From: Saprospiraceae bacterium
GTDB lineage: Bacteria > Bacteroidota > Bacteroidia > Chitinophagales > Saprospiraceae
DNA length: 47,918 nucleotides
Direction of reading: 5' to 3'
NCBI GenBank assembly: GCA_022841745.1
Contig: JALHQW010000037.1
Span: forward strand, 29,436 to 77,353
This document shows positions 5,261 to 42,559 of this stretch, piece after piece. Both the position numbers and the translations under genes were made by a program. The notes under the pieces were generated by a model. It saw nothing but the letters and a program-made list of their open reading frames with translations, was not told the DNA's origin and searched no databases. The stretch's first letter is position 1. Each line of letters opens with the position of its first letter.

Positions 5261-5423
5261 CAATGGTTCGTGAAGTTTTAAGGTTCTATGGTTTTCGGGA
5301 TTTGGGGCAAAACCTAACTGTAAATCATTTTTGACAAGGTTGGAAAAGCAACCGATCTTTTCAAAAACGGCAACTGTGCCGCAACCTTAGAACTCGAAAA
5401 CCCGAAAACTTCACGAACCATTG
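5261..5423. repeat. inverted repeat with 7/8-base submotifs
   Basis: Arms CAATGGTTCGTGAAGTTTT (5261-5279) and its exact reverse complement (5405-5423) flank further degenerate repeats (AAGGTTCT, GGTTTTCGGG, AACTCGAAAACCCG). It starts 10 nt after the porX stop, between convergent genes. Same class as the other degenerate short-repeat inverted repeats in the window. Confidence 0.75.
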
Positions 5424-5431
5424 AAGTAAAG

Positions 5432-5465
5432 CGGGTAATCGGAAATAAAAATTTCCAATTACCCG
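5432..5465. terminator. hairpin between convergent porX and mvk
   Basis: CGGGTAAT...ATTACCCG encloses a second stem GGAAAT/ATTTCC with an A-rich loop. Likely a bidirectional terminator 31 nt from the mvk stop. Confidence 0.5.
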
Positions 5466-5496
5466 TTCTATCAATGTTTTATGCACCTGAAAATTG

Positions 5497-6456
5497 TCAA
5501 AGGCTAAAAACAGGAATCAGTTTTTGTCCCACCAGCGCCGCTTTTGCCCCTTCCCAATCCTTCGTCATTCCCAAGATAAAGCCACCGCCGCCAGCACCGC
5601 AGACTTTCAATTTGTACAAATCGCCTTCCGTGCTGGCAGCCCACAGCTTTCGGTACTTAACCGGAATAAGCCCCCTCAAGAACTTGTACTGAAACAGGCC
5701 AATTGCTCTAAAGTATTTATAAACCGCTGCTGAATTTCCGTTCAAAAAGCTGTGGATGGCGTCCTGGACATCGGGTATCAAAGAGAAATCTATTCGGGAT
5801 GAAAGTGTCATTCCTTTTGATTGGTTCATAAAATACTCAATCAATGGAGTCGCTGAACGCTGAATGCCCGTATCGAGTAGGAAAATGGTATAGCTGCCTT
5901 TTTTCGGTACTTCGCCTTCCCCAAAGGGGCTAGCGGTAATGGGTTGTATGCCGCCTGGCAATTTCACCACCAGCGCACCTTCTTTTCCACCGAGTAGCAC
6001 GGGCTTTTGCAGGTAGCAAACCAGTGGGTCGGTACCGCTGCTCGTGCCATGGAAGAAGGCCTCCATTTGCGCCAGCACTTTTTTGAACTCAACAACAGGC
6101 CACTCCCTAGTTTCTTTCACCCAGTGCTTCAACACCGAAGCGACCAGCGCTCCAGAACTCCCTGCACCATATCCCGTGGGGATATTTGACTCGAAGACCA
6201 ACCCGTTTTGCAGTTCCTTTTTGAATGCTGAAATGTCAAGTTTCACGAGCAATTCGCCCCGTTGCTGCAAATCGTCGAGGTAGTCGGCGAACTGCGGCAA
6301 CTGCTGCTGCCGGGCCGCCAGTTCCGAGGGGCTGAGTTGCGGAGCATGTGCCCATTTACCCGAAAACAAGGGCAACGGTACGGCCAAGGCATGGCTGCCG
6401 AGGTTGACGGTGTGCTCCCCGAAGAGGAGGAGCTTGGCGGGGAAGGTGGAGGCCAT
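5497..6456 (-). CDS. mvk: Mevalonate kinase (GHMP kinase family)
   Basis: 319 residues. Predicted to phosphorylate mevalonate with ATP in the cytosol, in the mevalonate route to isoprenoids. Evidence: N-terminal AKLLLFGEHTVNLGSHALAVPL (GHMP N-terminal strand with GEH), the ATP-binding motif PTGYGAGSSGALVA at 93-106 and the C-terminal GHMP motif KVCGAGGGGFILG near 285. Length fits bacterial mevalonate kinases. A conserved TSSGTDP segment (HGTSSGTDPLVCY) fits the substrate loop. ATG start MASTFPAKLL. No other mevalonate-pathway gene is adjacent. The related diphosphomevalonate decarboxylase and phosphomevalonate kinase families are less likely because of the GEH start and TSSGTDP loop. Confidence 0.85.
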   Translation of the reverse strand: MASTFPAKLLLFGEHTVNLGSHALAVPLPLFSGKWAHAPQLSPSELAARQQQLPQFADYLDDLQQRGELLVKLDISAFKKELQNGLVFESNIPTGYGAGSSGALVASVLKHWVKETREWPVVEFKKVLAQMEAFFHGTSSGTDPLVCYLQKPVLLGGKEGALVVKLPGGIQPITASPFGEGEVPKKGSYTIFLLDTGIQRSATPLIEYFMNQSKGMTLSSRIDFSLIPDVQDAIHSFLNGNSAAVYKYFRAIGLFQYKFLRGLIPVKYRKLWAASTEGDLYKLKVCGAGGGGFILGMTKDWEGAKAALVGQKLIPVFSL

Positions 6457-6476
6457 TCTTTCTTCGTGTAGTAGTT

Positions 6477-6576
6477 TTTGATATAAGATATAAGATGTAC
6501 GATATAAGATTTTAGATTTCGAGCACGGCCCCCAAATCTAAAATCTTATATCGTACATCTTATATCTTATATCAAA
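6477..6576. repeat. perfect 43-bp inverted repeat of GATATAA-type heptamers
   Basis: Arms 6477-6519 and 6534-6576 are exact reverse complements with a 14-nt spacer. Each arm is a run of degenerate heptamers (GATATAA, GATATAA, GATGTAC, GATATAA, GATTTTA). It lies 20 nt upstream of the mvk start codon, inside its expected leader. Confidence 0.9.
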
Positions 6577-6678
6577 TCCGAGTTGATATAGTGGTTCCTA
6601 TTTTTCCCCGTAAAAGTATGGCTGCTTCTCCTACTTTTGCTTTCCCGATGGGAAACAAATCGTAACAACTTGAGCGGG

Positions 6679-6720
6679 TGTGGGAGGAGAGAAAAAATGA
6701 ATTTTTTCTCTCCTCCCACA
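6679..6720. repeat. GGGAGGAG palindrome, copy 1
   Basis: Perfect palindrome with 20-bp arms (6679-6698 and 6701-6720) and a 2-nt centre. Arms contain GTGGGAGGAGAGAAAAAAT. It has close relatives at 10959-11000 and 38874-38918. Here it is followed 4 nt later by another palindrome. Confidence 0.9.
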
Positions 6721-6724
6721 TTTT

Positions 6725-6771
6725 GAGGCTGTTTTGGGTGAAAATTTTCAATTTTCACCCAAAACAGCCTC
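6725..6771. repeat. companion palindrome of copy 1
   Basis: Perfect 22-bp arms (6725-6746 and 6750-6771), centre TTC; the arms start GAGGCTGTTTTGGGTG. It ends 29 nt before the start of the oxidoreductase gene, so it would lie in that gene's promoter or leader. Confidence 0.9.
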
Positions 6772-6800
6772 AAACAGCCAGTTGCGACAAATCAAACATT

Positions 6801-7814: not shown

Positions 7815-7820
7815 TAATCA

Positions 7821-8512: not shown

Positions 8513-8520
8513 TTCATTGT

Positions 8521-8998: not shown

Positions 8999-9020
8999 CT
9001 GGATATTATTTAAAGGCAAG

Positions 9021-10955: not shown

Positions 10956-10958
10956 AAA

Positions 10959-11000
10959 TGAGGGAGGAGAGAAAAAAGGAATTTTTTCTCTCCTCCCTCA
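10959..11000. repeat. GGGAGGAG palindrome, copy 2
   Basis: Perfect 19-bp arms (10959-10977 and 10982-11000) with a 4-nt centre GGAA; arms TGAGGGAGGAGAGAAAAAA. Paired with the palindrome 10913-10955. Confidence 0.9.
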
Positions 11001-11008
11001 TCTATTTT

Positions 11009-11258
11009 AACGTGAGGTTTGGATTAAAACCTGGCATCAAGCCGTCCCGTTAGGGACACAACGTGGGTAGAAAGGTAATAAAACATCGACCTTCGTCCCG
11101 TTAGGGACGCAACATGGGTAGGCTTCAATCCCTTTTGCTACCCATGTTACGTCCCTAACGGGACGGAGGTCGAGGGGAACGTTCAAATCTACCCACATTG
11201 AGTCCCTATGGGACTGAAAATCAGGCATTTATGTCAATTCTAATCCAAACCTCACGTT
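11009..11258. mobile_element. REP/MITE-like element with terminal inverted repeats
   Basis: A 250-bp unit bounded by AACGTGAGGTTTGGATTA (11009-11026) and its exact reverse complement (11241-11258). Inside are three copies of a GTCCCGTTAGGGAC-type palindrome: CCCGTTAGGGACACAACGTGGG, CGTCCCGTTAGGGACG and the inverted ACGTCCCTAACGGGACG, plus a diverged fourth (GAGTCCCTATGGGACT). No transposase is inside. The palindromes are like REP sequences mobilised by RAYT transposases in Bacteroidota. It sits between divergent transcription units (pepP upstream region and susCD 3' end). Confidence 0.7.
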
Positions 11259-11323
11259 ATTTTAATAACTGAGTACTTTTTGAACAATGCGTAAAGAAAG
11301 TGAGAATCTATTAAAACTTTTAT

Positions 11324-11385: not shown

Positions 11386-12444
11386 TTAACCGCCTTTGAG
11401 GGATGGCCAATCTTTGCCATCCTTGCGGGTCAATACTACTGTACCAGCATCGCCGTATGTGTTCTGCCACTTGATGGTAGCAGTTGCACCGTTAATGCTG
11501 GAGAAATTGTACTTGTAAGTGTCTCCATACTGGTCAGCGCCAGTTAGGGTGATTACGTTACATGCGTCCACGATTGTTGGGAGCACTACTGGGGTGTCTC
11601 CCCAAGCAAAGGCAAACTGACCAAAGGTAATATCAGTGGAAGTGTACTTGCCTGACAAGACATTGCCATTGGCATCCGTTGCTGGCGACCAAGTAACTGT
11701 TCCAGAAATTTCGCCAGGGAATGCCGCACCAGCACCGCCGCCAGCACCTTTAATCATTTCCGTTTGAACATAATCAAACTCACCGGCCAAATCAGACACG
11801 CAGATAACTGCCCACTCCACGTAGCAAGAAGAGTTCGGGAATTCCGCTGCGCAAATGGATGGCGACCAAGCGTCAAACTTGCGGTCGTCAGCGGTGTAGA
11901 TAATCCAACCGAGGCGGAACTTGTCACCAGCCACGAAGGGGTTATCTGGTGAGCGGTCCGGCTTCTCTGGGTTCTCGAACACCTTAACGGAACCGTCACC
12001 ATAGTCGTAGGTGGCATCTTTGTAAAGCTGGTAGATGTCGTTCTGGGTAACCGAGAAGGTGATGTCCTTGCGGTTGGCCGGAATTTCGCCGCCTTCAACG
12101 ACCTTGAACAGTTTTCCACGGGTAGTGGTATAGTCAAAATAATCGCCACCGTGCTGGGCGGTGCGGTCGTTGCCTTCGTTGTCTTCGTATGCTTCGTCGA
12201 AGAAGGCATAAAACTCAATACGGTTGGCGGTGTTGGCACCCTCAATGGAGTTCCATTGGAAGGCTACTTCCAAAGCTTCATCGCCTTGGAACACGAAATC
12301 GGCGGGCGAGCCAGCGGCAACCCTGCCCCAGCCGTGTACGGCCGTTTCCGGCTCGAAGAAGGGACTGGTTTCCTCGTCCTCGCAGGCGGCAAAGAAAAGC
12401 AGGCCCATTGCCAAGAAGAGATATGATAATTTAAAGATTTTCAT
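11386..12444 (-). CDS. SusCD-associated outer-membrane lipoprotein, third gene of the locus
   Basis: 352 residues from ATG at 12444 (a TTG at 12450 is also in frame). Signal peptide II with lipobox LLFFAAC (Cys21) followed by acidic EDEE, the usual surface-export pattern of Bacteroidota lipoproteins. The rest is beta-rich (EVAFQWNSIEGANTANRIEF, GKYTSTDITFGQFAFAWGD, ATIKWQNTYGDAGTVVLTRK), with no enzyme motif. As last gene of a susC-susD set it is probably a SusE/F-like surface glycan- or peptide-binding protein, but the family is not recognised. A 29-bp imperfect inverted repeat separates it from susD. Confidence 0.75.
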   Translation of the reverse strand: MKIFKLSYLFLAMGLLFFAACEDEETSPFFEPETAVHGWGRVAAGSPADFVFQGDEALEVAFQWNSIEGANTANRIEFYAFFDEAYEDNEGNDRTAQHGGDYFDYTTTRGKLFKVVEGGEIPANRKDITFSVTQNDIYQLYKDATYDYGDGSVKVFENPEKPDRSPDNPFVAGDKFRLGWIIYTADDRKFDAWSPSICAAEFPNSSCYVEWAVICVSDLAGEFDYVQTEMIKGAGGGAGAAFPGEISGTVTWSPATDANGNVLSGKYTSTDITFGQFAFAWGDTPVVLPTIVDACNVITLTGADQYGDTYKYNFSSINGATATIKWQNTYGDAGTVVLTRKDGKDWPSLKGG

Positions 12445-12480
12445 TTTCAAAAAGATTTGATAATCAAATAAAGAATGATT

Positions 12481-12564
12481 GATTGTTAGATTGTTGAATT
12501 GTTAGATTGCTAAATGGCCCACGCAATACGGGCAACAATCAAACAATTCAACAATGTAACAATC
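12481..12564. repeat. inverted repeat of GATTGTTA-type octamers
   Basis: Arms 12481-12509 and 12536-12564 (29 bp, two mismatches) are made of GATTGTTA, GATTGTTG, AATTGTTA units. The element lies inside the operon, between susD and the third gene. Confidence 0.85.
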
Positions 12565-14282: not shown

Positions 14283-14357
14283 GCGATATTTCTTTTTTGA
14301 TTTGAAAAAAAGCTTGATGGCATCGCCTGTTCTGGCAGCTGCCATTGAAAGCATTTT

Positions 14358-18708: not shown

Positions 18709-18788
18709 GGTTTGCAGTTTAACAGTTGGCAGTTAGCGATGAGTTAGCAGCTAATGACCGCAAACTCCAAACTGACGAACTGCAAACT
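18709..18788. repeat. imperfect inverted repeat of GCAGTTA-type repeats
   Basis: GGTTTGCAGTTTAACAGTTGG at one end and CGAACTGCAAAC at the other form an imperfect hairpin built of degenerate 7-8-base units (CAGTTTAA, CAGTTGG, CAGTTAG). It fills the gap between divergent pdxJ and the CPBP gene. Confidence 0.6.
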
Positions 18789-18827: not shown

Positions 18828-19760
18828 ATGAACGAACTCCACTTGGAGTCGAATACCGAATCGGAGGTTTTCGAGCCGAAGCCCTCCATGGTCTTGATGA
18901 CCATGCTGTTGCTGATTGGCCTTTGTGCCATCGTTGGCAGCGGTTTGCTCCTTTTGGGCGCCCACCTGCGTGGGATGGAGTTGCAAGCAGCCCTTGAAAT
19001 TGACGAACACAGCAGCCTTGGTAGCCGCTATTTCGTCAGGGCGGCGCTATTCGTAAACCATACAGCAAGTTTTCTGCTGCCCGCCTTGCTGACGCTCTGG
19101 CTTTTTTATAAAAAAAAGGCACTAAAAGCTGCTTCACTTCATATTGCTCCCAATCTCAATACCCTACTGATAGGCTTGCTCTTCGTGATGTCCGCTTTTC
19201 CACTGGCGCAGGTGGCCTTCGTGGCCAACAAGTGGCTGGTGGAGCAGTTCCCAGTTTTAGACGCCTTGGTGCAAACGGAAAAAACGACGATCAAGCTGAT
19301 GGAAGGCCTGCTCGTGATGCAATCCCCGTGGGAAATGTTGGCCAGCCTGCTGGTCATGGCCATCGTGCCAGCCTTGGGAGAAGAATTGGTGTTCCGTGGA
19401 ATCGGCCAACGAAAGCTGATTGAAATTACTGGGAAGCCCGCCCTGGGCATTTTGCTTACTGCCCTGATTTTTAGCATCACCCATTTCGAGATTCAACGCT
19501 TCTTGGCCATCATGCTCCTCGGCGGGGTACTAGGGCTATTGTTCCATTGGACAAAAAACCTGTGGATACCCATTGCGGCGCATTTCATCAACAATGGCGT
19601 CCAAGTCATCATCACTTGGCAAAACCAAGGCAAACTCAAAGAACTGAAGGAAGGAAATATAGAAGACTTGCCCATTACAATTGTATTGGCATCGGCAGTT
19701 GTGTTCGCCACTTCGGGGTATTTCCTTTGGAAAGAAAGACGATATACGGTTGACGGTTAA
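18828..19760 (+). CDS. CPBP-family intramembrane metalloprotease
   Basis: 310 residues with about eight hydrophobic segments. The CPBP (Abi/Rce1-like) motifs are in order: EELVFRGIGQRKL (EExxxR), then ITHFEIQRFLAIMLLGGVLG (FxxxH-type motif with His) and WIPIAAHFINN (motif-3 His/Asn). The family includes CAAX-type prenyl proteases and bacteriocin-immunity proteins; substrate unknown. ATG start with a short cytosolic acidic N-terminus (MNELHLESNTESEVFEPKPS). It is followed, after a repeat element, by the symporter gene on the same strand. Confidence 0.88.
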   Translation: MNELHLESNTESEVFEPKPSMVLMTMLLLIGLCAIVGSGLLLLGAHLRGMELQAALEIDEHSSLGSRYFVRAALFVNHTASFLLPALLTLWLFYKKKALKAASLHIAPNLNTLLIGLLFVMSAFPLAQVAFVANKWLVEQFPVLDALVQTEKTTIKLMEGLLVMQSPWEMLASLLVMAIVPALGEELVFRGIGQRKLIEITGKPALGILLTALIFSITHFEIQRFLAIMLLGGVLGLLFHWTKNLWIPIAAHFINNGVQVIITWQNQGKLKELKEGNIEDLPITIVLASAVVFATSGYFLWKERRYTVDG

Positions 19761-19832
19761 CGGCTTACGGTTGACGGTATTGATTGCCACTCCGTCTGCC
19801 GTCCACCGTCTGCCGTCCACCGTCAACCGATA
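19742..19832. repeat. inverted repeat of GGTTGAC / CGTCCAC heptamers
   Basis: Left arm ATATACGGTTGACGGTTAAC and right arm ending CCACCGTCAACCGATAT pair imperfectly over about 40 bp. Both arms are tandem degenerate heptamers. The left end overlaps the stop of the CPBP gene and the right end reaches 3 nt before the symporter start codon. Confidence 0.8.
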
Positions 19833-21379: not shown

Positions 21380-24300
21380 TCAGCCTTTTATGAACTTTAT
21401 CAAGGACTGGTAAACGGTGTTTTTCATCAAAATCTCCTCGTTGCCCAGCACCACTACCCGCTCCCGTGCCCTCGTGAGCGCAACATTTAGCTTGCGGTCA
21501 ACGCCCTCCTCCGAAAGCGAGACCAATGTCTCCATCTGCGAGGCGGCGTTGGTGCAGAGCGAGATGAGGATGATGTCCCTTGCCCCGCCTTGGTAGCGCT
21601 CCACCGTGTCAATGGTGATGCTGCTGCAATCAATGCCTTCCCGCTGCATCACCTCCTGTATTTGGGCGATTTGCGCCCGGTAAGGCGTTATCACGCCAAT
21701 TGATTGCGGATTGCGGATTGCGGATTGCTTGCCCCTTTGGGGCGGATTGGGGGTGCCCTCCTGAAAGAACTTGACGAGTTGGGCCAAAAGCTCCGCCTCG
21801 TGTCGGTTGGTCTTGCGGCTGGGGCTTTGGCGGTCGGCCGGGGTGTCGAGGAAGGCGATGCGGCGGCCTTCGATTTTTGCCAGCCAATCTGGTTGATTTT
21901 CAATGGTTTGTGAGGATAAAGCTGCCAACTGTTTTTGCGAAGCGGGTATTTCCTTCGGTAAAATGCGGAGCTTGCCTTCGTAAAAATGCTCGCCGGGGAA
22001 GCGCATGATGTCCTCGTGCATGCGGCCTTGGTGGCTCAGGTGGCCGATGGCCCAATGCCAGCCCTGCTCGGTGCAGCGTCGGTAGAGCCGCTCGAACAGG
22101 GAGTTGCGAAGGTTTTGCAGGCCTATTTCATGCAGTTTTTCGTCCAATACAGCCGATGCTTCGGGCGGCTGCACCACCACGGCGGGCAGTTGCTTGTGGT
22201 CGCCTATGAGCACCCACTGCTCGAATTGCGGCAGCAGCCCGACCAGCCCCGGCTCCAGTATCTGCGATGCCTCGTCAATGGCCACCCGCCTGAATTTTTT
22301 CAGTTGGAGCAATTCGAGATTATTGGACAGTGAGGCCAGCGTTGCCACGAAAATGCGGTGGCGTTCCAGCACTTCTTTCAAGCCTTTGCGAGTGGTCACT
22401 TCCTCGATTTTCTTTGCCAGCAATTGATTTTCAAACTGTTGCCCCGTCGAGTAGCGGGAGCCAATGCGCAGGTAGGCGCTCTTCACCTCATTGCCGAGGC
22501 TGTCCAATGCCTCGCAGATTTCGTCCACGGCCCGGTTGGTGTAGGCCAGTAGCAGTAGGTTTTCATCGGTGTTTTCAAAAATATGCTTCGCAAAATGGCG
22601 CAACACTTGGCTGGTTTTGCCCGTGCCTGGCGGCCCCCAGAGCAGGAAGTAGTCGGGGGCGGAGAGCATTTTGGCAAGGATTTCCTCTTGCTCGGAGGTT
22701 AGCTGCGAGTTTCGAGTTTCGAGTTTCGAGTTAGGGGTGCCAAACTCCACTTCGACGACATTGGGTGGCAGTTTTGGGGCCGATGTTCCCAACAGCAAAT
22801 CCCGCTTGCGCTGTTCAGCACCTGCCCAACGAAAGAGACCTTGGTAGAGGGCATTGTAGCCGGAATCCATCAGGTCGTGTTCGAGGTTCCATAGCTCGAA
22901 TTCCTTGAAAATCAGCGTATTGAATTGACGATAGCGTAGCCGCACGGTGATGGTCTCGGGGGTGATTTCGAGTAGGGTGACTTTGAAGATTTGGGTTTGA
23001 AGGGTTTGAGTTGTTCGAGGGGTTTGAGTTGCTTCCAGGCCCTGACTGCCAACTGCCAACTGCCAACTGCCAACTGGATAGAGCACCCCAATATCCCCCA
23101 CCCGGAAGTTGGCCAACAGGCTGGTGTCGGCGGTTTTTTCAAAAACGATGATGGGTTCGTCCTCGAAGGCCCGGTTTTCCTTGATTTTAAGGGATTTGAA
23201 CAAATCAAAACAGGCTTCTTTTTCAGCGGGGGTGTCGAGCCAAAGTGCGGCGAGGCCATTGGAAGCGGCGCTGCCTTGGTCGCCCGTTTTGGCCAATTGG
23301 TGCTCCCGTGCGATGAGTCCCGTGAAGGCATTGAAATAGCGGCGCTCCAAGTCGTTCATGGCGGCGTAAGTGGCCTCGAAACGGCTGATGCTTTCCGCCA
23401 GATAGCCCTTCAGGTGCGGGAAGCGACCACGGGCGATGCGCTCCAGCAGGGGCACTTGCGACACGTTTTCAGCGCCAACGGCAGCCAACCTTCGGTCAAT
23501 GGCCACGAGGCGGTTGCGGATTTGGAGGGCTTCGTGTTGCTCCGCAACGATGGGTGGTGCATATTTCAACTGGTTCATTTCCAAGCCACTATAGAGGATG
23601 TAGCTTGCTGGCTCCACCTCCTTGCCAAAGACCGAGCGCACCATCAGATCGTAGAGCAAGGTCTGTATGTAGTGGCTGGCGCCAATGCCGTGGCGGTTGG
23701 GCATGAAGGCTTGCCCGCTCTTGAGTTCGATGATGGCGCTTCGGTTTTCTTTTTTGTAAAAAACGTCAAGGCGGCCCTGCAAGCCGTGCTTTTCATCGTA
23801 AAAACTGGGTTCGAGGTAGGTCTCTTTCGGCTCGATGTCGAACTTTCGCATGCCCGTGCGCACCATCGCTTGCAGCGTCACCCAGTGCTTTTGTGACTGG
23901 TCATGGATTTCCCGAATCTCGGCATCGGCCAGCAACGAGAAGGCCAGCGGGCTGGTGCGGAATACTTTCGGGAAGGTCTCCTTGAAGCTGGCCTCGGGGT
24001 TGTGCATCAACTCATCCAAGAAAAAGTTGGCGCAGTTCCCGAGCAGCATGGCCTTTGTCTGGGCCACGGGCAGGAATTTTTGCAACAAGTAAACGACTGG
24101 CTCGGCGCTATTCCCTTGGTAACAGTTGGCCACGGTGGACACGTCAAGGAGGTAGTCGGGGCAGACGACGATGGCCTTCGGACGGTAAACGGTGATTAGT
24201 GATTGGTGATTAGTGATTAGTGATTGGGGGGCACCGATTGCGGATTGTTGATTGCGGATTGCGGATTGGGGGGCTGCTTCGGCGCTTGTTTCATTTTCAA

Positions 24301-24931: not shown

Positions 24932-24979
24932 TGTTGCGAAGCAAAGGATGGGTATGCGTTGGGTGCGTTTTAAAGAAGG

Positions 24980-25005
24980 CAAAAGTAGAAAGTAAAAAGG
25001 CAAAA
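24980..25005 (-). promoter_or_regulatory. candidate promoter of the helicase gene
   Basis: Minus-strand TTTTG (25005-25001) and TACTTTTG (24987-24980), the latter an exact TAnnTTTG; the spacer of 13 nt is shorter than usual. It supports a start codon downstream of 24975. Confidence 0.4.
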
Positions 25006-26527: not shown

Positions 26528-26544
26528 TTAAAGTTGGTGAAAAT

Positions 26545-26620
26545 GATTGTTCGATTGTTGTAATTGTTTGATTGTTGAACAATGCGCAATAACAATCAAA
26601 CAATTTAGCAATCAAGCAAT
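26545..26620. repeat. inverted repeat of GATTGTT-type octamers
   Basis: Arms (about 26546-26576 and 26591-26620) pair imperfectly and consist of GATTGTTC, GATTGTTG, AATTGTTT units. Same sequence family as 12481-12564. Lies between the RsbW-like gene and ybeY on the minus strand. Confidence 0.75.
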
Positions 26621-30840: not shown

Positions 30841-30877
30841 TGGATTTACGATTGCGGATTTACGATTTACGATTGGG
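30841..30877. repeat. GATTTAC/GATTGCG heptamer run
   Basis: Five tandem degenerate heptamers (GATTTAC, GATTGCG, GATTTAC, GATTTAC, GATTGGG) immediately after the TAG of the permease gene. No opposing arm is seen. Confidence 0.85.
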
Positions 30878-33983: not shown

Positions 33984-35912
33984 CTATTTCACCACCACAT
34001 ACTCCGTCCTGCGGTTCATCCGACGCCCCTCCTCCGTCTCGTTGCTCCCCGCAGGCACCGACTCGCCGAAGCCCTTGAATCGCAGGCGGCTGGCATCGGC
34101 ACCGTTTTGCACGAGGTGGTCGAACACGGCCTTGGCCCTGGCCTCGGAGAGTTTCAGGTTGTCGGCCTCGGAGCCAACGTTGTCGGTGTGGCCGTTGATT
34201 TGGATTTTTAGCGTGGGGTTTTCGGCCAGCAGCTTTTTCAGTTGGGCGAGTTCGGAGCGGCTCTCCTTTTGCAGCGTGGCAGACCCCGTTTCAAAGAAGA
34301 TATTTTTCAGGACAATGGGCCGGGCGGCGGCGGCATCGCTCATGGGCGATAGGGCGATGGCCAGCTTGAAGGGCTTGTCGAGCGTGCCTGGCTCGGTGAG
34401 GGCGAAGTTTTCGGAATAGAACAGGTATTTTTCCTTGGAAACGTTCAGGGCATAGTTGCCGCCAGCGGGCAGCGTGAAGAGGAATTCGCCGTTGGCGTCG
34501 GTCGTTGCGGTAGCAAAGGGCTTGCCCGACGACAGCTCGATGATATCGGCGGTGGCCACAAGCGGCTTCTGGCTGAGGGCGTCGGACACGACGGCCTTTA
34601 CGAAGGTGACGGGCTTGGGCTTGGCGGCATCGTGCAGCGCAAAGGAATAGATGTCGTTCTCGCCCTGGCCGCCCTCCATCGTGCTGGAGATATAGGCCGT
34701 GCTGCCGTCGAGGCTTATGAAAACGGCGCCCTCGCTGCCCGCCGTGTTGATGGGGTAGCCGATGTTTTCGGGAGCGCCCCATTTGCCATCGGGTTGTTTT
34801 CTTGCGAAAAATATGTCGAAACTGCCCATGCCGATGTGCCCTCGTGAGGTGAAATAGAGCGTCTGGCCATCGGGGTGGATGAACGGGCTTTGCTCCTGGT
34901 CGGGCGAGTTGATGGTGCTATCGAGGCGCACGGGCTGGCCCCATTTGCCGTTGGGCTGGCGGTCGCTCTGCCAGATGTCGCTGTTGCCCTTCCAGCCCGA
35001 TTCGGCCCGCACGAAGTAGAGCGTTTTTCCATCGGAAGAAAGCGAGGGTTGCGTCTCTATCATGCCCGTGTTGATGGGGGCGCCGAGGTTCTTCGGCGGC
35101 ATCACCTTGCCGTTGACGGTCTCGGAAAAGTAGAGGTCGCAGCCGCCGAGGCCGCCGGGCCGGTTGCAGGCCGTGAAAATGATGAGTTTGCCATCGGCAG
35201 AAATGGCTTGGGAGCCTTCGCTGTCCTCAGTGTTAAGGTGTTCGATAGGGGTGCCCTTTTGCCACTGGCCGTCCACGAGTTTGCTGATGAAGAAGTCTTC
35301 TTGTCGGTTGTAGCGGCTGTCCCCGAGTAGGGTGCAGTAGATGAGCGTTTCGCCGTCGGCGGTGAGGGTGGGCAGGTACTCCGATTTTGGGGTATTGATG
35401 TTCGGGCCCAGGTTTTTTGGCTCGTATGGCACCGGATTGGCAAACGCCTTGGCAGAGAACCTCGCATTTTCGAGGTATTTCTTGGCGGTGGACTTGCGGC
35501 TTGCGCTGATTTTGGGTGCTTTTTTTAGAAAATAATCCATCAAAACAGCCGCCTGCCCAAAGTTTTTCAACTCAAACTCGACGATGCCTAAGCTGTAAAA
35601 AACGTTCGGCTCGTACACGGAATCAATGGCGATGGCTTTTTCGTAACCTGTTCGTGCTTCCTCCAACTTCTCCTGCACGTTTTTCGTGTTGGCCCATTGG
35701 ATTTGTGCATCAATGAAGGTCGGGTCCATTTTCAGCGCCTTTTCGAAGTCCTCGATGGCATCGTCGAACTGCTTGAGGTCGAACATGCGGTTGCCCCGGT
35801 CAAAGACGGTCTTCAACTTGTCGTTGGCGGTCTTGGCGGTCGTGAACTTCTTCTGGGCAAATGCTTGCGAGCAAACAAAAACAAGCAGTAACAGGCTAAG
35901 TATGCGAGTCAT
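33984..35912 (-). CDS. PorE-like OmpA-family protein (TPR, PD40 propeller, CRD, OmpA)
   Basis: 642 residues from ATG at 35912, with signal peptide MTRILSLLLLVFVCSQAFAQ. Domains in order: TPR repeats (~30-135, NRMFDLKQFDDAIEDFEKAL), a WD40/PD40 beta-propeller (~160-430, repeated YFSE/LYFTS and DGKTLYFV motifs such as SSDGKTLYFVR), a carboxypeptidase-regulatory-like domain (~435-520, ANGEFLFTLPAGGNYAL), and OmpA C-terminal domain with INGHTDNVGSEADNLKLSEARA and peptidoglycan-binding Asp/Arg. This four-domain layout matches PorE, the type IX secretion component that ties the PorP/PorK ring to peptidoglycan; paralogues with the same layout are common, so assignment to secretion is inference. Confidence 0.85.
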   Translation of the reverse strand: MTRILSLLLLVFVCSQAFAQKKFTTAKTANDKLKTVFDRGNRMFDLKQFDDAIEDFEKALKMDPTFIDAQIQWANTKNVQEKLEEARTGYEKAIAIDSVYEPNVFYSLGIVEFELKNFGQAAVLMDYFLKKAPKISASRKSTAKKYLENARFSAKAFANPVPYEPKNLGPNINTPKSEYLPTLTADGETLIYCTLLGDSRYNRQEDFFISKLVDGQWQKGTPIEHLNTEDSEGSQAISADGKLIIFTACNRPGGLGGCDLYFSETVNGKVMPPKNLGAPINTGMIETQPSLSSDGKTLYFVRAESGWKGNSDIWQSDRQPNGKWGQPVRLDSTINSPDQEQSPFIHPDGQTLYFTSRGHIGMGSFDIFFARKQPDGKWGAPENIGYPINTAGSEGAVFISLDGSTAYISSTMEGGQGENDIYSFALHDAAKPKPVTFVKAVVSDALSQKPLVATADIIELSSGKPFATATTDANGEFLFTLPAGGNYALNVSKEKYLFYSENFALTEPGTLDKPFKLAIALSPMSDAAAARPIVLKNIFFETGSATLQKESRSELAQLKKLLAENPTLKIQINGHTDNVGSEADNLKLSEARAKAVFDHLVQNGADASRLRFKGFGESVPAGSNETEEGRRMNRRTEYVVVK

Positions 35913-35979
35913 TTTTTGGATTTGAAAATTCAGTGTTGAAAACGCTGGAAAAATAGGAAGGATTGCGGCAAGTAAAAGA

Positions 35980-36014
35980 AAAAAGGGCCACCGCATCAGC
36001 GGCAGCCCCTTTTA
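35980..36014 (-). terminator. terminator of the TPR protein gene
   Basis: AAAAGGGGCTGCCGC and GCGGTGGCCC form an imperfect GC-rich stem followed on the minus strand by TTTTTT. 22 nt after the stop at 36036. Confidence 0.6.
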
Positions 36015-37631: not shown

Positions 37632-38798
37632 GTGAAAATAAACAACATCCCCTTCCGCACCATTTGGCTGCACCCCGAAAATGAGCGTATCGTCCAAATC
37701 ATTGACCAGCGCCATTTGCCGCACTGCTTTGTCGTTGCGGATTTGAAAACCTTGGAAGACTTCGAGATGGCCATCCGGGACATGCTCGTGCGGGGCGCTC
37801 CGCTCATCGGTTCTGCTGCTGCTTATGGCATATACATAGCGGCGCTGTCGGCTGTTGCTCCTCAATTCATGGACTTGCCACAATTTGATGAAAAAATACG
37901 AGAAGCCGCCGCCCGCCTGAAAGCTACCCGCCCCACCGCCGTCAACCTTGTATATGCCGTTGACCGAGTTTTGGCAGAAATGGCTGTTGGTAAGAGCATA
38001 GTCGAGCAAATCGCCCAAATACGCCAAACTGCCAGCGACATTACCGAAGAAAGCGTCGCCCACTGCCGTTCCATCGGCGAGTACGGCCTGAAGCTCATCG
38101 AAGCCATTCACGAAAGGAAAATAAAGCTGAAGCTTCCGTCCACCGTTGGCCGTCCACCGTCCACCGTCAATATTCTGACCCACTGCAACGCTGGCTGGCT
38201 CGCCTGCATAGACCACGGCACGGCCACCTCCCCTATATACGCTGCCCACGACCGAGGCATACCCGTCCACGTCTGGGTGGACGAGACCCGCCCCCGCAAC
38301 CAAGGCGCCTCGCTCACCGCCTTTGAGTTGAAGGAACATGGCGTGCCCCACACCGTCATCGCCGACAACACGGGCGGCCACCTCATGCAGCACGGGCTGG
38401 TGGACATGGTCATCGTCGGCACCGACCGCACCACCCGTACGGGCGACGTGGCCAACAAAATTGGCACCTATCTCAAGGCTCTCGCCGCTGCTGACAATGG
38501 CGTGCCTTTCTACGTGGCCGTTCCATCATCCAGCATTGATTGGTCGCTGCGCAATGGCCTGACCGACATCCCCATCGAGCAACGGGATCCGACAGAGGTA
38601 CATTTCATCATTGGCTTGGATGAAAAAACGGGCGAGGTGAGGGAGGTCCGGCTGACACCGCAGGGCAGCCCTGCTGCCAATTACGCCTTCGACGTGACGC
38701 CCGCACGGTTGGTGACGGGGCTGATAACGGAAAGGGGCGTCTGCGAGGCGAGCGAGCAAGGATTGTTGGGGCTTTTTGAAGAACAATCAAATAGCTGA
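37632..38798 (+). CDS. mtnA: S-methyl-5-thioribose-1-phosphate isomerase
   Basis: 388 residues, GTG start (MKINNIPFRTIWLHPENER). Converts methylthioribose 1-phosphate to methylthioribulose 1-phosphate in methionine salvage. Hallmarks: RDMLVRGAPLIGSAAAYG, RPTAVNLVYAVDRV, catalytic Cys185 in ILTHCNAGWLA, VDETRPRNQGA and catalytic Asp near 267 in VGTDRTTRTGDVANKIGTY. Longer than the usual ~345-370 residues: a heptamer run (38136-38170) inserts a KLPSTVGRPPSTVN linker directly before the catalytic-Cys strand. No other salvage gene is adjacent. Confidence 0.95.
   Translation: MKINNIPFRTIWLHPENERIVQIIDQRHLPHCFVVADLKTLEDFEMAIRDMLVRGAPLIGSAAAYGIYIAALSAVAPQFMDLPQFDEKIREAAARLKATRPTAVNLVYAVDRVLAEMAVGKSIVEQIAQIRQTASDITEESVAHCRSIGEYGLKLIEAIHERKIKLKLPSTVGRPPSTVNILTHCNAGWLACIDHGTATSPIYAAHDRGIPVHVWVDETRPRNQGASLTAFELKEHGVPHTVIADNTGGHLMQHGLVDMVIVGTDRTTRTGDVANKIGTYLKALAAADNGVPFYVAVPSSSIDWSLRNGLTDIPIEQRDPTEVHFIIGLDEKTGEVREVRLTPQGSPAANYAFDVTPARLVTGLITERGVCEASEQGLLGLFEEQSNS
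38136..38170. repeat. CGTCCAC heptamer run inside mtnA
   Basis: Degenerate heptamers CCGTCCA, CCGTTGG, CCGTCCA, CCGTCCA, CCGTCAA, read in frame as PSTVGRPPSTVN. Same sequence family as the right arm of the intergenic element 19742-19832. Confidence 0.9.
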
Positions 38799-38854: not shown

Positions 38855-38978
38855 GGTAACTACTTAGGAGGGTGTGGGAGGAGAGAGAAAAAATTTCATT
38901 TTTTCTCTCTCCTCCCACGTATTGGGGTGTTTTTGGCAAAAATTGAAAATTTTTACCCACCCCTGCCAAGTAGTTACC
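38855..38978. repeat. nested palindromic element with GGGAGGAG palindrome, copy 3
   Basis: Outer arms GGTAACTACTT (38855-38865) and AAGTAGTTACC (38968-38978) enclose a perfect palindrome with 21-bp arms (38874-38894 and 38898-38918, GTGGGAGGAGAGAGAAAAAAT, centre TTC) and a companion hairpin GGGGTGTTTTTGGCAAAAATT...AAATTTTTACCCACCCC. It ends 19 nt before the CoA-binding protein gene. Third member of the 6679 / 10959 family. Confidence 0.85.
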
Positions 38979-38997
38979 ATTTTTGATAAAAATATCC

Positions 38998-39357
38998 ATG
39001 AAAAAGACCCTCGTCATCGGCGCATCCACCAACCCGGAACGGTACTCGTACCTGGCCATCAATTCATTGAAAAGCCATGGCCACGAGGTAGTAGCCATTG
39101 GCCGAAGGGAAGGTGAGGTGAACGGTGTGAAAATCCAAACAGGGCATCCTCCGCTTACTGGTGTTGACACGGTAACGATGTACCTGAACCTGTCCCACCA
39201 AGAAGAATACTACGATTATATATTGGAAATGAAACCCCGGCGTATCATCTTCAACCCTGGTGCCGAGAACTACGACCTGCTGGACAGGGCCAGCCGTGAG
39301 GGAATCGAATGCCTCGAAGCCTGTACGCTGGTTATGCTGGCCACGGGGCAATACTGA
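38998..39357 (+). CDS. CoA-binding domain protein (YccU-like)
   Basis: 119 residues from ATG at 38998 (a TTG at 38983 is in frame). Rossmann-type CoA-binding domain: KKTLVIGASTNPERYSYLAINSL (GAS-N-R loop), HEVVAIGRREGEVNGVKI, DTVTMYLNLSHQ and RRIIFNPGAENYDLLDRASREGIECLEACTLVML. Typical size for single-domain YccU/HcgD-type proteins. The bound ligand is presumably CoA; the role is unknown. An inverted repeat begins 1 nt after its stop codon. Confidence 0.88.
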   Translation: MKKTLVIGASTNPERYSYLAINSLKSHGHEVVAIGRREGEVNGVKIQTGHPPLTGVDTVTMYLNLSHQEEYYDYILEMKPRRIIFNPGAENYDLLDRASREGIECLEACTLVMLATGQY

Positions 39358-39442
39358 GGTTGATAAGGGTCTATGAAGTTGATAAGGGTTGATGGCTGCA
39401 ACGCCTATCAACCCTTATCAACTTCATAGACCCTTATCAACC
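39358..39442. repeat. perfect 36-bp inverted repeat between convergent genes
   Basis: Arms 39358-39393 and 39407-39442 are exact reverse complements around 13 nt. Arms contain GGTTGATAAGGG repeated with a shift (GTTGATAAGGGTC, GTTGATAAGGGTT). It fills the gap between the CoA-binding gene and korB and has no T-run; it may act as a bidirectional terminator. Confidence 0.9.
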
Positions 39443-39448
39443 AATATT

Positions 39449-40498
39449 TTAGCCAATCTGCCAGGTGCTGCTTCCGGCAATCAACTTGTCCAAGTCTCCC
39501 TCGCCCATGCTTCCCTTGATAGCGTCCAATTGCTCATGCAACTGCGCCTCGTAGCTGGGCCTTTCCGTCCGGTAAAACACACCAAATGGCCGGGGCAAAG
39601 CATCAGGATTCGCCGAAGGATTATCGAAGAAACGGGCGAGGATGCCAGCCTTAACATGGTCGGTATTGTCATGCACCCAAAGGTCGTCCTTTGTGAAGCC
39701 GCCCGTGTTCAGGTCAACCACTTGTGGGGTGAAACCGTCGAGGCGAACGCCTTTTTCGCCTTCTTTTCCAAAAACAAGCGGCTTGCCTTGCTCCAAAATC
39801 AGCGTAGTATCTGGCTTGGAGTCCTTCTCCGTGAAGACTTCAAATGCCCCGTCGTTGAAGATATTGCAGTTTTGATAGAGCTCAATGAACGAGGTGCCCC
39901 GGTGCGCATCGGCCTGTTGCAGCATGTCCTTCATGTGCTTGGGGTCACGGTCCATCGTGCGGGCCACGAAGGTGGCGTCGCAGCCCAAGGCCAGTGCAAT
40001 AGGGTTCACTGGGTGGTCAATCGAGCCGAAGGGCGTCGAGGGCGTCTTTTTATGTTCCTCCGAGGTAGGGGAGTATTGACCTTTGGTCAGCCCGTAAATC
40101 TGGTTGTTGAACAAGAGGAAGTTCAAATCAAAATTGCGGCGCAACAGGTGCATGAAATGGTTGCCGCCGATAGAAAGCGCATCGCCGTCGCCCGTGATGA
40201 CCCAAACGCTGAGGTTCGGGTTGGCAATCTTCAGCCCCGAAGCAAATGCCGGGGCACGCCCGTGGATGCTGTGCATCCCGTAGGTTTCCATATAATAAGG
40301 GAAGCGGGACGAGCAGCCAATGCCTGACACAAACACCGTCTCATGCGGCAGCTTGCCAAGGTCGGCAAGGGTCGTCTGCACCTGCTTCAGGATGGAGTAA
40401 TCGCCACAGCCGGGGCACCACCGCACGTCTTGGTCGGTGGCGAAGTCCTTGGCTTTTAGTGTGTACGGAATCCCAGATGGGTTGGATTCGATGGCCAT
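39449..40498 (-). CDS. korB: 2-oxoacid:ferredoxin oxidoreductase beta subunit
   Basis: 349 residues. Thiamine-diphosphate subunit of a 2-oxoglutarate (or related) ferredoxin oxidoreductase. Hallmarks: [15 protein letters not shown] at the start, [30 protein letters not shown], and the TPP/Mg site [17 protein letters not shown]...LLFNN. The C-terminal part ([22 protein letters not shown]) is typical of the KorB group. Follows korA with a 134-bp gap that holds an inverted repeat. Works with KorA to make acyl-CoA and reduced ferredoxin in the TCA cycle. Confidence 0.93.
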
Positions 40499-40502
40499 AT
40501 TT

Positions 40503-40646
40503 TTATGCTTGATAAGGGTTGAAAATGGTTGATTTGGGGTTGATAAGGTTTGAAAATGGTTTATGGAAGTTGATTTCAGCTGCCGCCTATCAACCCGTAT
40601 AAACTTTTATCAACCCTTATCAACCCCAAAAATCAACCTTTATCAA
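40503..40646. repeat. imperfect inverted repeat of GGTTGAT/AAGGGTT units
   Basis: Left part CTTGATAAGGGTTGAAAATGG, right part CAACCCTTATCAACCCC pair imperfectly. Units are those of the 39358-39442 element. It occupies the korA-korB intergenic space and overlaps the korA 3' end. Confidence 0.75.
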
Positions 40647-42483
40647 CCAAGTTCAAAATAAACTCAAACAACTCTTCGTGCGCAATCGGCGTGCCCTGTA
40701 TCTTGTTGAACGGCACGGCGGGCAACAGGAACTTGTCCCGGATGATTTTCACCAACTGCCCGTTGTTTATTTCGGGAATCACCACCGTTTTGAAACCACG
40801 CATCATCGCCTCCAAATTGGCGGGGAATGGCCGCAGGTAGCGCAAGTGCGCATGACCTACCTTGTGGCCCATCTCCGTTAGTATGTGGGTCACCGACTCA
40901 CATACCCCGTAGGTACTGCCCCAGCCGAGCAGCAGCACGTCGCCGCTTTCGTGGCCCGATTCTATTTTTTGTTCGGGAATGTAGTTGGCAATCAACTCCA
41001 CCTTGCGCTCACGGGTCTTCACCATGTGCTCGTGGTTGGCGGCGTCATAGCTGATATTGCCCGTCACGTCCTCCTTCTCGATGCCGCCGATGCGGTGCAA
41101 AAGGCCGGGCGTGCCCGGGATGGCCCAAGGCCGGGCCAGTTTTTCGTCCCGCTGGTAGGGCATGAATTGGTTGGCTTCGCCGTTTTGCTTCGCAAATTCG
41201 ACCTTCATTTCTGGCATGTCGGATGCCTTTGGGTAGCGCCAAGGCTCGGCACCATTGGCGATATAGCCGTCGCTGAGCAGCAACACTGGCGTCATGTGTT
41301 GCACGGCAATGCGGCACGCCTCCATCGCCGCTTCGAAGCAATCGGACGGCCTGCTGCAAGAGACGATGGGCAAGGGACATTCTCCATTTCGGCCATACAT
41401 GGCTTGCAAGAGGTCGCTCTGCTCCGTTTTGGTGGGTAGCCCCGTGGAAGGGCCTCCCCGCTGCACGTCAATGACCACGAGCGGCATTTCCAGCATAACG
41501 GCAAGGCCCATCGCCTCGCCCTTGAGCGCAAGGCCTGGGCCGGAAGTGCCCGTCACGCCAAGGTTGCCGCCATAGCTGGCACCTATTGCGGAAGCAACGG
41601 CGGCAATTTCGTCCTCTGCCTGGAAGGTGCGCACCCCGAAATTTTTATGTTTGGAAAGCCCATGCAAAATGCTCGAAGCGGGTGTGATAGGGTAGGAACC
41701 ATAGAAAAGTGGTATCCCCAATTTTTTGGAAGCCACAATGAGGCCGAGCACGATGGCGTCGTTGCCGTTGATGCTTCGGTAGCTGCCTTTTTCCAGTTCT
41801 GCTGGCGCAACGGTGTAACGGTCGCTAGCAAGCTCCATGGTATCGGCGAGGTTGTAGCCTGCTTGCAATGCCTTTATGTTGGCGTCCAGGATGTCCGGTT
41901 TGCTCTTGAACTTGGCATTGAGGAATTTCAGCGTCGTGTCCAAGGAGCGGCTGTAGCGCCAAAGCAGGAAACCCAGCACGAACATGTTCTTGCAGCGATC
42001 CCTTTCCTTGGTGCCAAGCGGCGATTCGCCAATGGACTCACGGGTCATCTTCGTCACCTGAATCTTGAGCACTTCATAGCCTTCCAAGGTGTCATCCTCC
42101 AAGGGGTTCTGCGTCTCCTCGTACTTGGCGAGGCGCAGGTTTTTGGAATCAAAACCATCCTCGCTGAGGATGACCGTGCCGCCTTTTTTCACCATTTTCA
42201 GGTTCGACTTGAGTGCAGCGGCGTTCATGGCCACCAGCACGTCGAAGCGGTCGCCGGGCGTGAAGATGCGCTGGCTGCCAAAGTGCAACTGGAAACCGGA
42301 GACGCCCGCCAAAGTGCCTATCGGGGCACGGATTTCGGCTGGGAAATCGGGGAAAGTGGAAAGGTCACTGCCCGTGAAGGCAGTGTCGTCGGTAAAAAGA
42401 CCGCCCGTGAGCTGCATCCCGTCGCCGGAGTCGCCAGCGAACTTGATGATGACGGACTTTTTTTCTTGCGCTTGAGTGGCCAT
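40633..42483 (-). CDS. korA: 2-oxoacid:ferredoxin oxidoreductase alpha subunit (gamma-alpha fusion)
   Basis: 616 residues. N-terminal gamma domain (~10-185: IKFAGDSGDGMQLTGGLFTDD) fused to the alpha pyrimidine-binding part: GSYPITPASSILHGLSKHK, FQAEDEIAAVASAIGASYGG, TGTSGPGLALKGEAMGLAV and VIDVQRGGPSTGLPTKTEQSDLL, then a C-terminal domain ending NKIQGTPIAHEELFEFI. This fused form is usual for KorA in Bacteroidota. First gene of the korA-korB pair. An imperfect GGTTTCA-type inverted repeat lies 20 nt upstream of its ATG. Confidence 0.94.
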   Translation of the reverse strand: MATQAQEKKSVIIKFAGDSGDGMQLTGGLFTDDTAFTGSDLSTFPDFPAEIRAPIGTLAGVSGFQLHFGSQRIFTPGDRFDVLVAMNAAALKSNLKMVKKGGTVILSEDGFDSKNLRLAKYEETQNPLEDDTLEGYEVLKIQVTKMTRESIGESPLGTKERDRCKNMFVLGFLLWRYSRSLDTTLKFLNAKFKSKPDILDANIKALQAGYNLADTMELASDRYTVAPAELEKGSYRSINGNDAIVLGLIVASKKLGIPLFYGSYPITPASSILHGLSKHKNFGVRTFQAEDEIAAVASAIGASYGGNLGVTGTSGPGLALKGEAMGLAVMLEMPLVVIDVQRGGPSTGLPTKTEQSDLLQAMYGRNGECPLPIVSCSRPSDCFEAAMEACRIAVQHMTPVLLLSDGYIANGAEPWRYPKASDMPEMKVEFAKQNGEANQFMPYQRDEKLARPWAIPGTPGLLHRIGGIEKEDVTGNISYDAANHEHMVKTRERKVELIANYIPEQKIESGHESGDVLLLGWGSTYGVCESVTHILTEMGHKVGHAHLRYLRPFPANLEAMMRGFKTVVIPEINNGQLVKIIRDKFLLPAVPFNKIQGTPIAHEELFEFILNLVDKG

Positions 42484-42503
42484 AAAACCAAGGTGGTATT
42501 ATT

Positions 42504-42559
42504 GGTTTCAGGTTTCAAGTTTCATGGGACACCTGCCCTGAAACTTAAAATTTGAAACC
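42504..42559. repeat. imperfect inverted repeat of GGTTTCA heptamers
   Basis: GGTTTCAGGTTTCAAGTTTCA (42504-42524, here given as three heptamers GGTTTCA, GGTTTCA, AGTTTCA) pairs with TGAAACTTAAAATTTGAAACC-type sequence at 42539-42559, about four mismatches. In the korA leader. Confidence 0.75.

Follow-up and report, generated by a model that had tools for sequence, protein, structure and literature searches.

The window analysed here, a stretch of 47,918 nucleotides from a Saprospiraceae bacterium (contig JALHQW010000037.1, positions 29436-77353, in an 8.43-Mb assembly of 178 contigs), contains short degenerate repeats which a first-pass annotation, made from the letters alone, had listed at fifteen sites. 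We found that arrays of this kind, mostly built of 7- or 8-nucleotide units, recur in the host genome in many different units and that those following stop codons are G/T-rich on the sense strand. Some of the places they occupy swap the unit between congeners yet stay an array or a hairpin, while other places keep the unit by descent or are empty. The host genome (G000) was sampled in 60 stretches totalling 1.198 Mb and drawn from 8 of the 178 contigs (about 15% of the genome; about 1.25 Mb with the window). The comparison set consisted of 13 congeners (G001-G013), with one genome per species.

Using Tandem Repeats Finder, inverted-repeat searches and RNA folding, we recovered short degenerate tandem arrays at 14 of the 15 listed sites; at 5261, the exception, the repeat is inverted but shows no convincing period. 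Units differ from site to site while period and style are common to them, as had been proposed, the period being 7 or 8 except at two sites (39358 and 40505) where it is near 10. The further statement that the sites are mostly inverted stood for 8 of the 15, which are inverted repeats of short units (9 with 5261). It did not stand for six direct arrays, five of which (21702, 22705, 22993, 24191, 38136) lie inside open reading frames (ORFs) and one of which (30841) follows a stop codon.

The genome-wide enrichment of period 7 that the annotation had anticipated is strong in this 15% sample: 59 sites of period 7 and 35 of period 8 were counted in the 1.198 Mb, against 2 and 2 in a single run of an order-3 Markov control. 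A run of N in stretch L039 adds one site per period and is probably the source of the steady 1-2 sites of the control. With N excluded and the window included, the host densities per Mb are 49.8 at period 7, 27.3 at period 8, 1.6 at period 9, 3.2 at period 10 and 0 at periods 4-6, values which may be somewhat high because the sampled contigs had been picked for listed repeat hits. Harmonics of periods 7 and 8 are also present at 14, 16, 21 and 24. The genome counts are too low for degenerate sites, because the strict detectors recover only 9 of the 15 listed window sites and miss 5261, 18709, 26545, 30841, 39358 and 40503. Periods 7 and 8 stand out likewise in two other samples. In the 0.5 Mb of G004, which include five stretches selected because they carry orthologs of window genes, they reach 16 and 10 per Mb; in the 0.28 Mb of G347, which belongs to another class and of which two stretches (C56 and C171) were selected for their hits, they reach 28.5 and 14.2 per Mb. 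Nothing appears at periods 4-6 beside this peak in the samples of the three genomes. Inverted repeats whose arms reach 20 nt or more number 155 in the host sample (one being the N-run) and 1 in the single control run made for them. Their arms are periodic in 47 cases, against 5 after arm shuffling; 25 of the 47 have period 7 and 11 have period 8, and one of the four cases of period 3 is the N-run.

We counted 43 unit classes of 7-8 nt in the 1.25 Mb of host sequence, GCGGATT, GGTGATT, CAATCCTT, GAGAGGGT and GGATGCT being the top units. By eye, most classes are devoid of G runs, GGG being present in a minority such as GAGAGGGT and CGGGTTTT. The idea that units are freely chosen has to be restricted: the 72 strict period-7 arrays use only 29 classes, the ten commonest of which cover two thirds of the sites, and GCGGATT, the commonest, accounts for 14 arrays. 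Three successive GATTGCG units give 35 matches in the host genome (overlapping matches inside one array being counted) and occur in 7 of the 13 congeners but in only 2 of 394 other genomes sampled across the phylum. Hence this single unit, found in only 3 of 395 genomes when the host is counted, cannot trace the phenomenon. Other words are found in relatives, at the places listed for them: GATTTTT mixed with GATTTGC in G033, GATTTAA and GATTTGA in G050. Ten seven-letter units are common to G000 and G004, where 1.4 would be expected over 1170 classes; G347 shares 3 of its 11 units with the host (0.7 expected), which is too few to argue from. Four successive GATTNNN units, present in 30 of 60 related genomes, were rejected as a marker, the reversed control being frequent too in some of them (148+153 vs 40+24 in G028).

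Place and strand polarity of the arrays

Once direct and inverted elements are merged, 111 of them are found in 1.245 Mb of host sequence: 59 in gaps between co-directional genes, 19 in convergent gaps, 4 in divergent gaps, 23 in coding sequence and 6 at the edges of stretches. They are therefore mostly intergenic (82 of 111) and multicopy. The genes were called by a simple codon-score caller (861 in one run, 837 in another), which leaves the starts uncertain by some codons. Divergent gaps are depleted, since they hold 4 of the 82 intergenic elements while representing 122 of the 567 gaps (p = 1.4e-4); when only inverted elements are considered, 2 of 39 lie there (p = 0.012).

Polarity was counted on looser arrays, one per gap end and within 60 nt of it. 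Of the 76 arrays at gap ends after stops, 61 are G/T-rich on the sense strand (41 of 54 in co-directional gaps, 20 of 22 in convergent ones). Of the 62 before starts, 52 are C/A-rich on that strand (43 of 52 in co-directional gaps, 9 of 10 in divergent ones). Gaps devoid of arrays give the baseline of composition: 197 of 397 segments of 40 nt following stops are G/T-rich, as are 126 of 507 preceding starts. The G/T bias at 3' ends is above this baseline (p = 5e-8). The rule of polarity, according to which arrays after stops are G/T-rich on the sense strand, is new; like the rule of placement at gene boundaries, it goes beyond the features noticed in the first-pass annotation. The same polarity is visible in G004 (G/T in 12 of 15 arrays at 3' ends, C/A in 16 of 16 at 5' ends), and the arrays at 3' ends in G347 are G/T-rich in 8 cases out of 8. 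Arrays in coding sequence are C/A-rich on the sense strand (20 of 23 when strictly defined, 24 of 35 when loosely defined).

The relative orientation of neighbouring arrays is also biased. Among the 44 period-7 pairs separated by at most 800 nt, 21 are compatible with an inverted arrangement and 2 with a direct one. For periods 7-10 together, 33 pairs are inverted, 28 with the G/T-rich array first and 5 with the C/A-rich array first, and 18 are direct; of the direct pairs, the seven whose arrays are over 60 nt apart belong to one cluster in L038. In 20 of 29 cases (p = 0.0014), the two arms of one species are more alike than partner arms taken from different species.

Exchange of units at fixed places

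We aligned the helicase ORF of the window (21380-25003, minus strand) with 12 orthologs and found four variable linkers, each of which carries differing arrays, or none, according to the species. The first linker has CGCAATC and CACTAAT in G000, GGCAGTT in G011, AATACCTC in G001 and CCAACTAC in G004, and is empty in G009, G005, G003 and G010; the fourth has CGCAATC in G000 and G011, GGCAGTT in G008 and GGATTTC in G007. In the aligned orthologs (some of them cut by contig ends) the arrays lie within open frames, and a translated 7-nt unit leaves a 7-residue echo in the linker (NPQSAIR, LAVGSWQ). Variable peptide echoes in protein linkers are thus accounted for as repeats at the level of DNA. 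In the IF-2B-family gene, the slot at 38136 is occupied by CCGTCCA in G000, by a degenerate form of it in G011 and by CAATCCG-type units in G004 and G006.

Four intergenic places (18710, 19746, 26544 and 40505) were followed through the congeners, the names of the units being assigned by eye. At 19746, the inverted repeats among 13 species are made of GGTTGACGG in two, of GGGAATTG-type units in five and of GTTTCATTG in one; G010 has a direct array (z = -4.1), three species have no repeat, and G011 has a 0.95-kb insertion with a 216-codon open frame. The slot at 26544 is empty in 7 of 14 species, which have a clean gap of 26-49 nt, and filled by a repeat or a remnant in six, which have a gap of 88-104 nt; in G003 a gap of 244 nt holds a GTTGAGAGG-type pair. 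At 18710, 7 of 13 species keep the GGCAGTT family, and in 5 of these 7 the arms match well (score of at least 11); at 40505, GTTGATAAGG is retained in 6 of 13. In G011, the place of the direct array 30841 is taken by about 0.6 kb of different sequence, in which a frame of 192 codons is open; GTTTCA units were not seen at the place of 42504 in G006, G008, G011 and G004. Full conservation of each site by descent, named earlier as a refuting outcome, is therefore not what we found: such conservation is only partial, though units are kept at 18710 and in 3 of 14 species at 26544. The exchange at fixed slots also favours the view that a process, rather than one mobile sequence, generates the sites, although the process itself can only be inferred. 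One mobile sequence was rejected, as the units vary among sites and, at one place, among species.

Possible origin and related systems

Cyanobacterial short tandemly repeated repetitive sequences (STRRs) are degenerate 7-nt tandem units, multicopy, with several units per genome and no known function. The likeness to STRR-type heptamers which had been pointed out in the window holds: the host units of 7 nt are degenerate, multicopy, mostly intergenic and enriched genome-wide in our sample, the octamer class being equally real. The host differs in being a member of the Saprospiraceae and not a cyanobacterium, and its units differ from the published ones. To our knowledge, inverted pairing, polarity at gene ends and exchange of units are not known for cyanobacterial STRRs.

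We give about an even chance to the explanation that the repeats arise by slippage as STRR-like arrays, are duplicated into inverted pairs and then pass a selective filter at gene ends. Units of 7-8 nt would arise and expand through replication slippage favouring that length. An array would often be copied nearby in inverted orientation with the G/T-rich arm first, giving stem-loops; the pattern of pairs is observed, and copying is the mechanism we suppose behind it. Gene structure would then filter the survivors, arrays persisting where translation tolerates them: after stops with the G/T-rich strand as sense, rarely between divergent genes, and before starts and inside variable protein linkers mostly with the C/A-rich strand as sense. 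This is the distribution found above, for which tolerance would be the cause. Lastly, an RNA hairpin may be useful at some co-directional junctions and be kept while its sequence is replaced, as is indicated at the junction of two pyruvate:ferredoxin oxidoreductase-like subunit genes (slot 40505) and presumed elsewhere. Units would turn over between species because the function, if any, lies in place, polarity and pairing and not in the letters. An older hypothesis, cited by Rehm et al. 2015 (PMC4692102), holds that heptamers reflect the DNA stretch held by the polymerase.

Several observations weigh against this explanation. Slippage with filtering explains neither the G/T polarity in convergent gaps nor the closeness of arrays to stops: of the 86 arrays lying at most 45 nt past a stop, 40 overrun the stop or start no more than 6 nt from it, which is closer than free slippage with tolerance would lead one to expect. 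The G/T polarity at 3' ends is not accounted for by composition, and start-codon avoidance fails to explain it as well, because it is strongest in convergent gaps, which have no starts. The C/A bias at 5' ends is not above composition (10 of 62 G/T, p = 0.14), so that composition before starts could explain the C/A-rich arrays there, and the depletion of divergent gaps is not significant when the comparison is made with non-periodic inverted repeats (2 of 39 vs 12 of 69, p = 0.08). Some arms with the same unit (L023:9455-9978, L051:13115-13375, L002:207-476) are inverted and 182-463 nt apart without a called gene between them, too far for a simple hairpin; the first two of these sets of arrays stand at both ends of an intergenic gap, which is thus bracketed and not folded. 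At slot 18710, orthologous arms are closer to each other than to their own partner arm in 5 of 6 species, which means that arms are not always copied from each other. Finally, with one genome per species, no slippage event was seen. The similarity of arms was also tried as a proof of selection and given up as mixed, the overall count of 20 of 29 speaking for it and slot 18710 being contrary.

A possible but clearly less probable alternative is that hairpins are selected throughout, as intercistronic stem-loops resembling repetitive extragenic palindromic (REP) elements, which would stabilise or separate cistrons after stops and for which the arrays would be the raw material. All 8 inverted repeats of short units in the window fold as stems (z from -3.9 to -17.7), and periodic inverted repeats lie at a median of 2.5 nt from stop codons (44 distances), 30 of 43 being between co-directional genes. 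The slot at 40505 is structured beyond shuffles (z <= -2) in 11 of 13 species despite unlike sequences: the structured states are GTTGATAAGG units in six species, other units in G007 and plain hairpins in G011, G001, G002 and G003, while G005 (z = -0.4) and G009 (z = 0.7) are unstructured. No other observation indicates as well that this junction keeps its structure rather than its sequence. Comparing G013 with G001 at slot 26544, we found matched arms of weak periodicity which differ by two paired double changes; G001 shows two unpaired changes as well. Against a general role of hairpins, z <= -2 is reached in only 6 of 14 species at 26544, 6 of 13 at 18710 and 9 of 12 at 19746. Since the slot at 26544 is empty in half of the species and that at 19746 unstructured in 3 of 12, many hairpins are dispensable. 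Moreover, 68 of the 111 elements have no partner arm by inverted-repeat search, and hairpin function is not expected for the 23 in coding sequence. Intrinsic terminators were considered separately and rejected: none of the eight inverted repeats is in the intrinsic-terminator scans (which allow loops of 3-8 only), and the 14-nt tails of the 8 sites have no U-tract, with no run of 5 T on either strand (TTTT at two).

It is unlikely, in our opinion, that a widespread unknown process writes 7-8-nt arrays onto gene ends, anchored at stops and with fixed polarity, and copies them into a mirrored partner. If this were true, intergenic DNA would be rewritten in a small changing vocabulary while place, polarity and pairing stay, and the repeats of Xanthomonas, Nostoc and Saprospiraceae would be one phenomenon. 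Equally doubtful is the simpler form, in which a stop-anchored process, e.g. copying or repair tied to translation or transcription at gene ends, writes arrays of fixed polarity. Both the closeness of 40 of 86 arrays to the stop and the 3' polarity, which extends to another class with G347, fit such writing. When the unit is extrapolated backwards in these 40 arrays, it matches 1.30 of the three stop letters, compared with 1.06 for shuffled stops (reached in 8 of 5000) and with 0.88 expected for a random phase (1.30 reached in 4 of 5000), but all three letters are matched by only 5 of the units and none by 10. Inverted elements in co-directional gaps are not significantly closer to the stop than to the start (19 of 28, p = 0.087, falling to 9 of 28 after 25 nt are allowed for the start region), direct-only arrays show no preference for the stop over the start (15 of 29), and neither coding arrays nor arrays before starts have a stop as anchor.

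We regard as somewhat less credible still that only mutation and purging are at work, the arrays being neutral, the hairpins by-products, and the polarity a result of the removal of arrays which create starts, stops or G-rich sequence. ATG, GTG or TTG is present in 26 of 43 units on the G/T strand vs 3 of 43 on the C/A strand, which agrees with such purging, as do the 5' bias that stays within composition and the C/A-rich sense strand of coding arrays. This leaves unaccounted for the G/T-rich convergent 3' ends (20 of 22) and the structure retained at slot 40505. As a cause of periods 7, 8 and 10, stops in all three frames were rejected: a stop occurs in 14 of 43 units on the G/T strand vs 12 of 43 on the C/A strand, and the commonest unit GCGGATT holds none.

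A family of mobile elements inserted at gene ends, such as REP elements with their associated tyrosine transposases (RAYT), miniature inverted-repeat transposable elements (MITE) or similar, is very improbable. Empty and filled sites exist and the same units recur at many loci, but no sequence is common to the sites (29 unit classes among 72 arrays), the units in one place differ by species, and constant termini were not seen by eye in the sites inspected. Phase-variation (contingency) loci are the least credible of all: 7-8-nt units do shift the frame on slipping and five window sites are inside ORFs, but most arrays are intergenic, the helicase orthologs carry theirs in open frames, and the window sites adjoin or lie within genes (among them YbeY, PdxJ and an AAA_11/AAA_12 helicase) that are not typical surface genes.

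The closest published case found is that of the GGGAATC heptamers of Xanthomonas and Nostoc. In PMC4692102, degenerate arrays of GGGAATC / GGGGA(C/T)T heptamers are described as mostly intergenic, under-represented between divergent ORFs, and variable in length and sequence between related species. The Xanthomonas heptamers lie near the upstream ORF and form inverted pairs in 70 and 75 cases, with few inverted pairs in Nostoc; the G-rich strand is on sense downstream of ORFs and on antisense upstream. One unit type was studied in that work and interpreted as a G-quadruplex (GGGANTN, with runs of at least 3 G), and heptanucleotide repeats of the cyanobacterium Calothrix are mentioned. Our arrays obey the same rule of place and polarity with G/T-rich standing for G-rich, the upstream half being within composition here. 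They differ by their 43 unit classes, by the slot-wise differences of units between species and by the arrays in protein linkers; in contrast with GGGANTN, the top host units have no GGG runs, bar a minority. G-quadruplexes were rejected by eye because most units are without the G runs needed, and they are not needed, since the same 3' rule holds for many such units.

MacGregor 2015 (PMC4679880) reports TAACTGA direct repeats in Beggiatoaceae, Cyanobacteria and five Bacteroidetes, patchy in distribution and near gene boundaries, with indels mostly in 7-nt steps between close strains, the main genome having 169 sets in direct orientation and a single indirect repeat; they were proposed as binding sites upstream of starts for a post-transcriptional regulator. 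Ours are also heptamer arrays near gene boundaries, but the TAACTGA system has one unit, and TAACTGA is not among the 60 of 86 host unit classes listed. The tandem repeats of Borgs, which are archaeal extrachromosomal elements, occur in gaps and ORFs as ours do, create disordered protein regions and evolve fast, according to PMC9879509. They are said there to be perfect and A-enriched, with ORF units all divisible by three, whereas the host arrays are degenerate and mostly of 7-8 nt. REP elements are presented in PMC3733652 as small palindromes between genes, with a hypothesised part in termination or in the stabilisation of mRNA, and most of them bear GTAG or CGTC tags; unlike REP/RAYT systems, the host copies have no conserved tagged palindrome, and no common motif was seen by eye in the sites inspected. 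Among the matches listed from the open-access literature, none beyond the papers cited describes such repeats in Saprospiraceae, Haliscomenobacter or Bacteroidota.

What sets the host repeats apart from known heptamer repeats is that they are many-unit, exchangeable, polarity-bound arrays. Bacterial heptamer repeats were known before, but neither their function nor what generates them has been established. In the host, dozens of units follow a single rule of place and polarity, and related species can carry differing units at one slot, so that what is constrained (position, strand and sometimes pairing) can be separated from what is free (the letters). This separation makes testable both the source of 7-8-nt arrays and the effect of a G/T-rich array or stem-loop after a stop.

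Individual sites and other repeats nearby

The site at 5261..5423 lies between convergent genes, its arms of 25 nt being 92% complementary and without a convincing heptamer period. At 6477..6576, 20 nt upstream of the start of ORF 5497-6456(-), degenerate GATATAA units of period 7 form 43-nt arms that are 100% complementary (z = -17.3). The octamers GATTGTTA (period 8, arms 93%, z = -6.5) occupy 12481..12564, between the co-directional genes 12573-14354(-), SusD-like, and 11386-12450(-). Between the divergent genes for PdxJ(-) and a CAAX-protease(+), the inverted repeat 18710..18787 belongs to the GGCAGTT family, with degenerate 7/8 period and arms of 79% (z = -3.9). In the gap holding it, TATCTTTG or TATATTTG occurs in 11 of 13 species, and TATCTTTGG at 18794-18802 matches what we take to be the Bacteroidetes -7 promoter motif. 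The CAAX-protease(+) is followed by an SSF transporter(+); between the two, 19746..19829 is made of GGTTGACGG/CCGTCCACCG units (period 7, arms 84%, z = -8.9) and overruns the stop codon 19758-19760.

Inside the helicase ORF, all on the plus strand, are a direct GATTGCG array at 21702..21728 (linker slot 4), a direct CGAGTTT array at 22706..22732 (listed as 22705; slot 3), a period-9 GGGTTTGAG stretch followed by a direct period-7 ACTGCCA array at 22993..23076 (the ACTGCCA part being slot 2), and direct GTGATTA then GATTGCG arrays at 24192..24274 (listed as 24191; slot 1). The inverted repeat 26544..26620, of period-8 TGATTGTT units, lies between the HATPase(-) and YbeY(-) genes (z = -4.0). On the plus strand, the direct GATTTAC array 30841..30876 begins 1-2 nt past the stop of ORF 28144-30840(+), and the direct CCGTCCA array 38136..38168 is inside the IF-2B-family gene 37632-38798(+). 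Units of GGTTGATAAG type form two inverted repeats: 39358..39442 (period 10, perfect 36-nt arms, z = -17.7) nearly fills the gap between the stops of the convergent genes 38983-39357(+) and 39449-40498(-), and 40499..40632 (the repeat itself being 40505-40630, period about 10) fills the gap between the pyruvate:ferredoxin oxidoreductase-like genes 40633-42483(-) and 39449-40498(-). Upstream of ORF 40633-42483(-), 42504..42559 has GGTTTCA units of period 7 (z = -5.3). The arms of 26544-26620 and of 42504-42559 are absent from the 25 inverted pairs listed for the window.

The window also contains repeats of other kinds. Transfer RNA genes (Leu gag, Val tac and a third, by Rfam, at 128-203) lie within tandem 134-bp and 90-bp units at 1-653. 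The inverted repeats at 6679-6720, 10958-11001 and 38874-38918 are perfect over 20-21 bp, with arms of the GGAGGAGAGAAAAAAT type and a tiny loop; that at 10958-11001 appears in the terminator scan, and repeats of this type may be the ordinary bidirectional terminators of the genome. At 11008-11259, a cluster of GTCCCGTTAGGGAC repeats between inverted TAACGTGAGGTTTGGATTAAAA ends is REP- or MITE-like, its exact core being absent from the rest of the 1.2-Mb sample. A 21-bp unit is repeated 9.3 times at 33679-33873, in the gap that separates ORF 32825-33565 from ORF 33984-35996. Elsewhere in the host sample, L011:13590-17988 has several copies of the palindrome ACGTTTACTAAAC..GTTTAGTAAACGT at a partly regular spacing, and a dispersed inverted-repeat family with the core GGGTTATCAAACCC, or one near it, is present in L047, L031, L038, L058, L037, L059, L048 and L019, this core having 13 exact matches in the 1.2 Mb.

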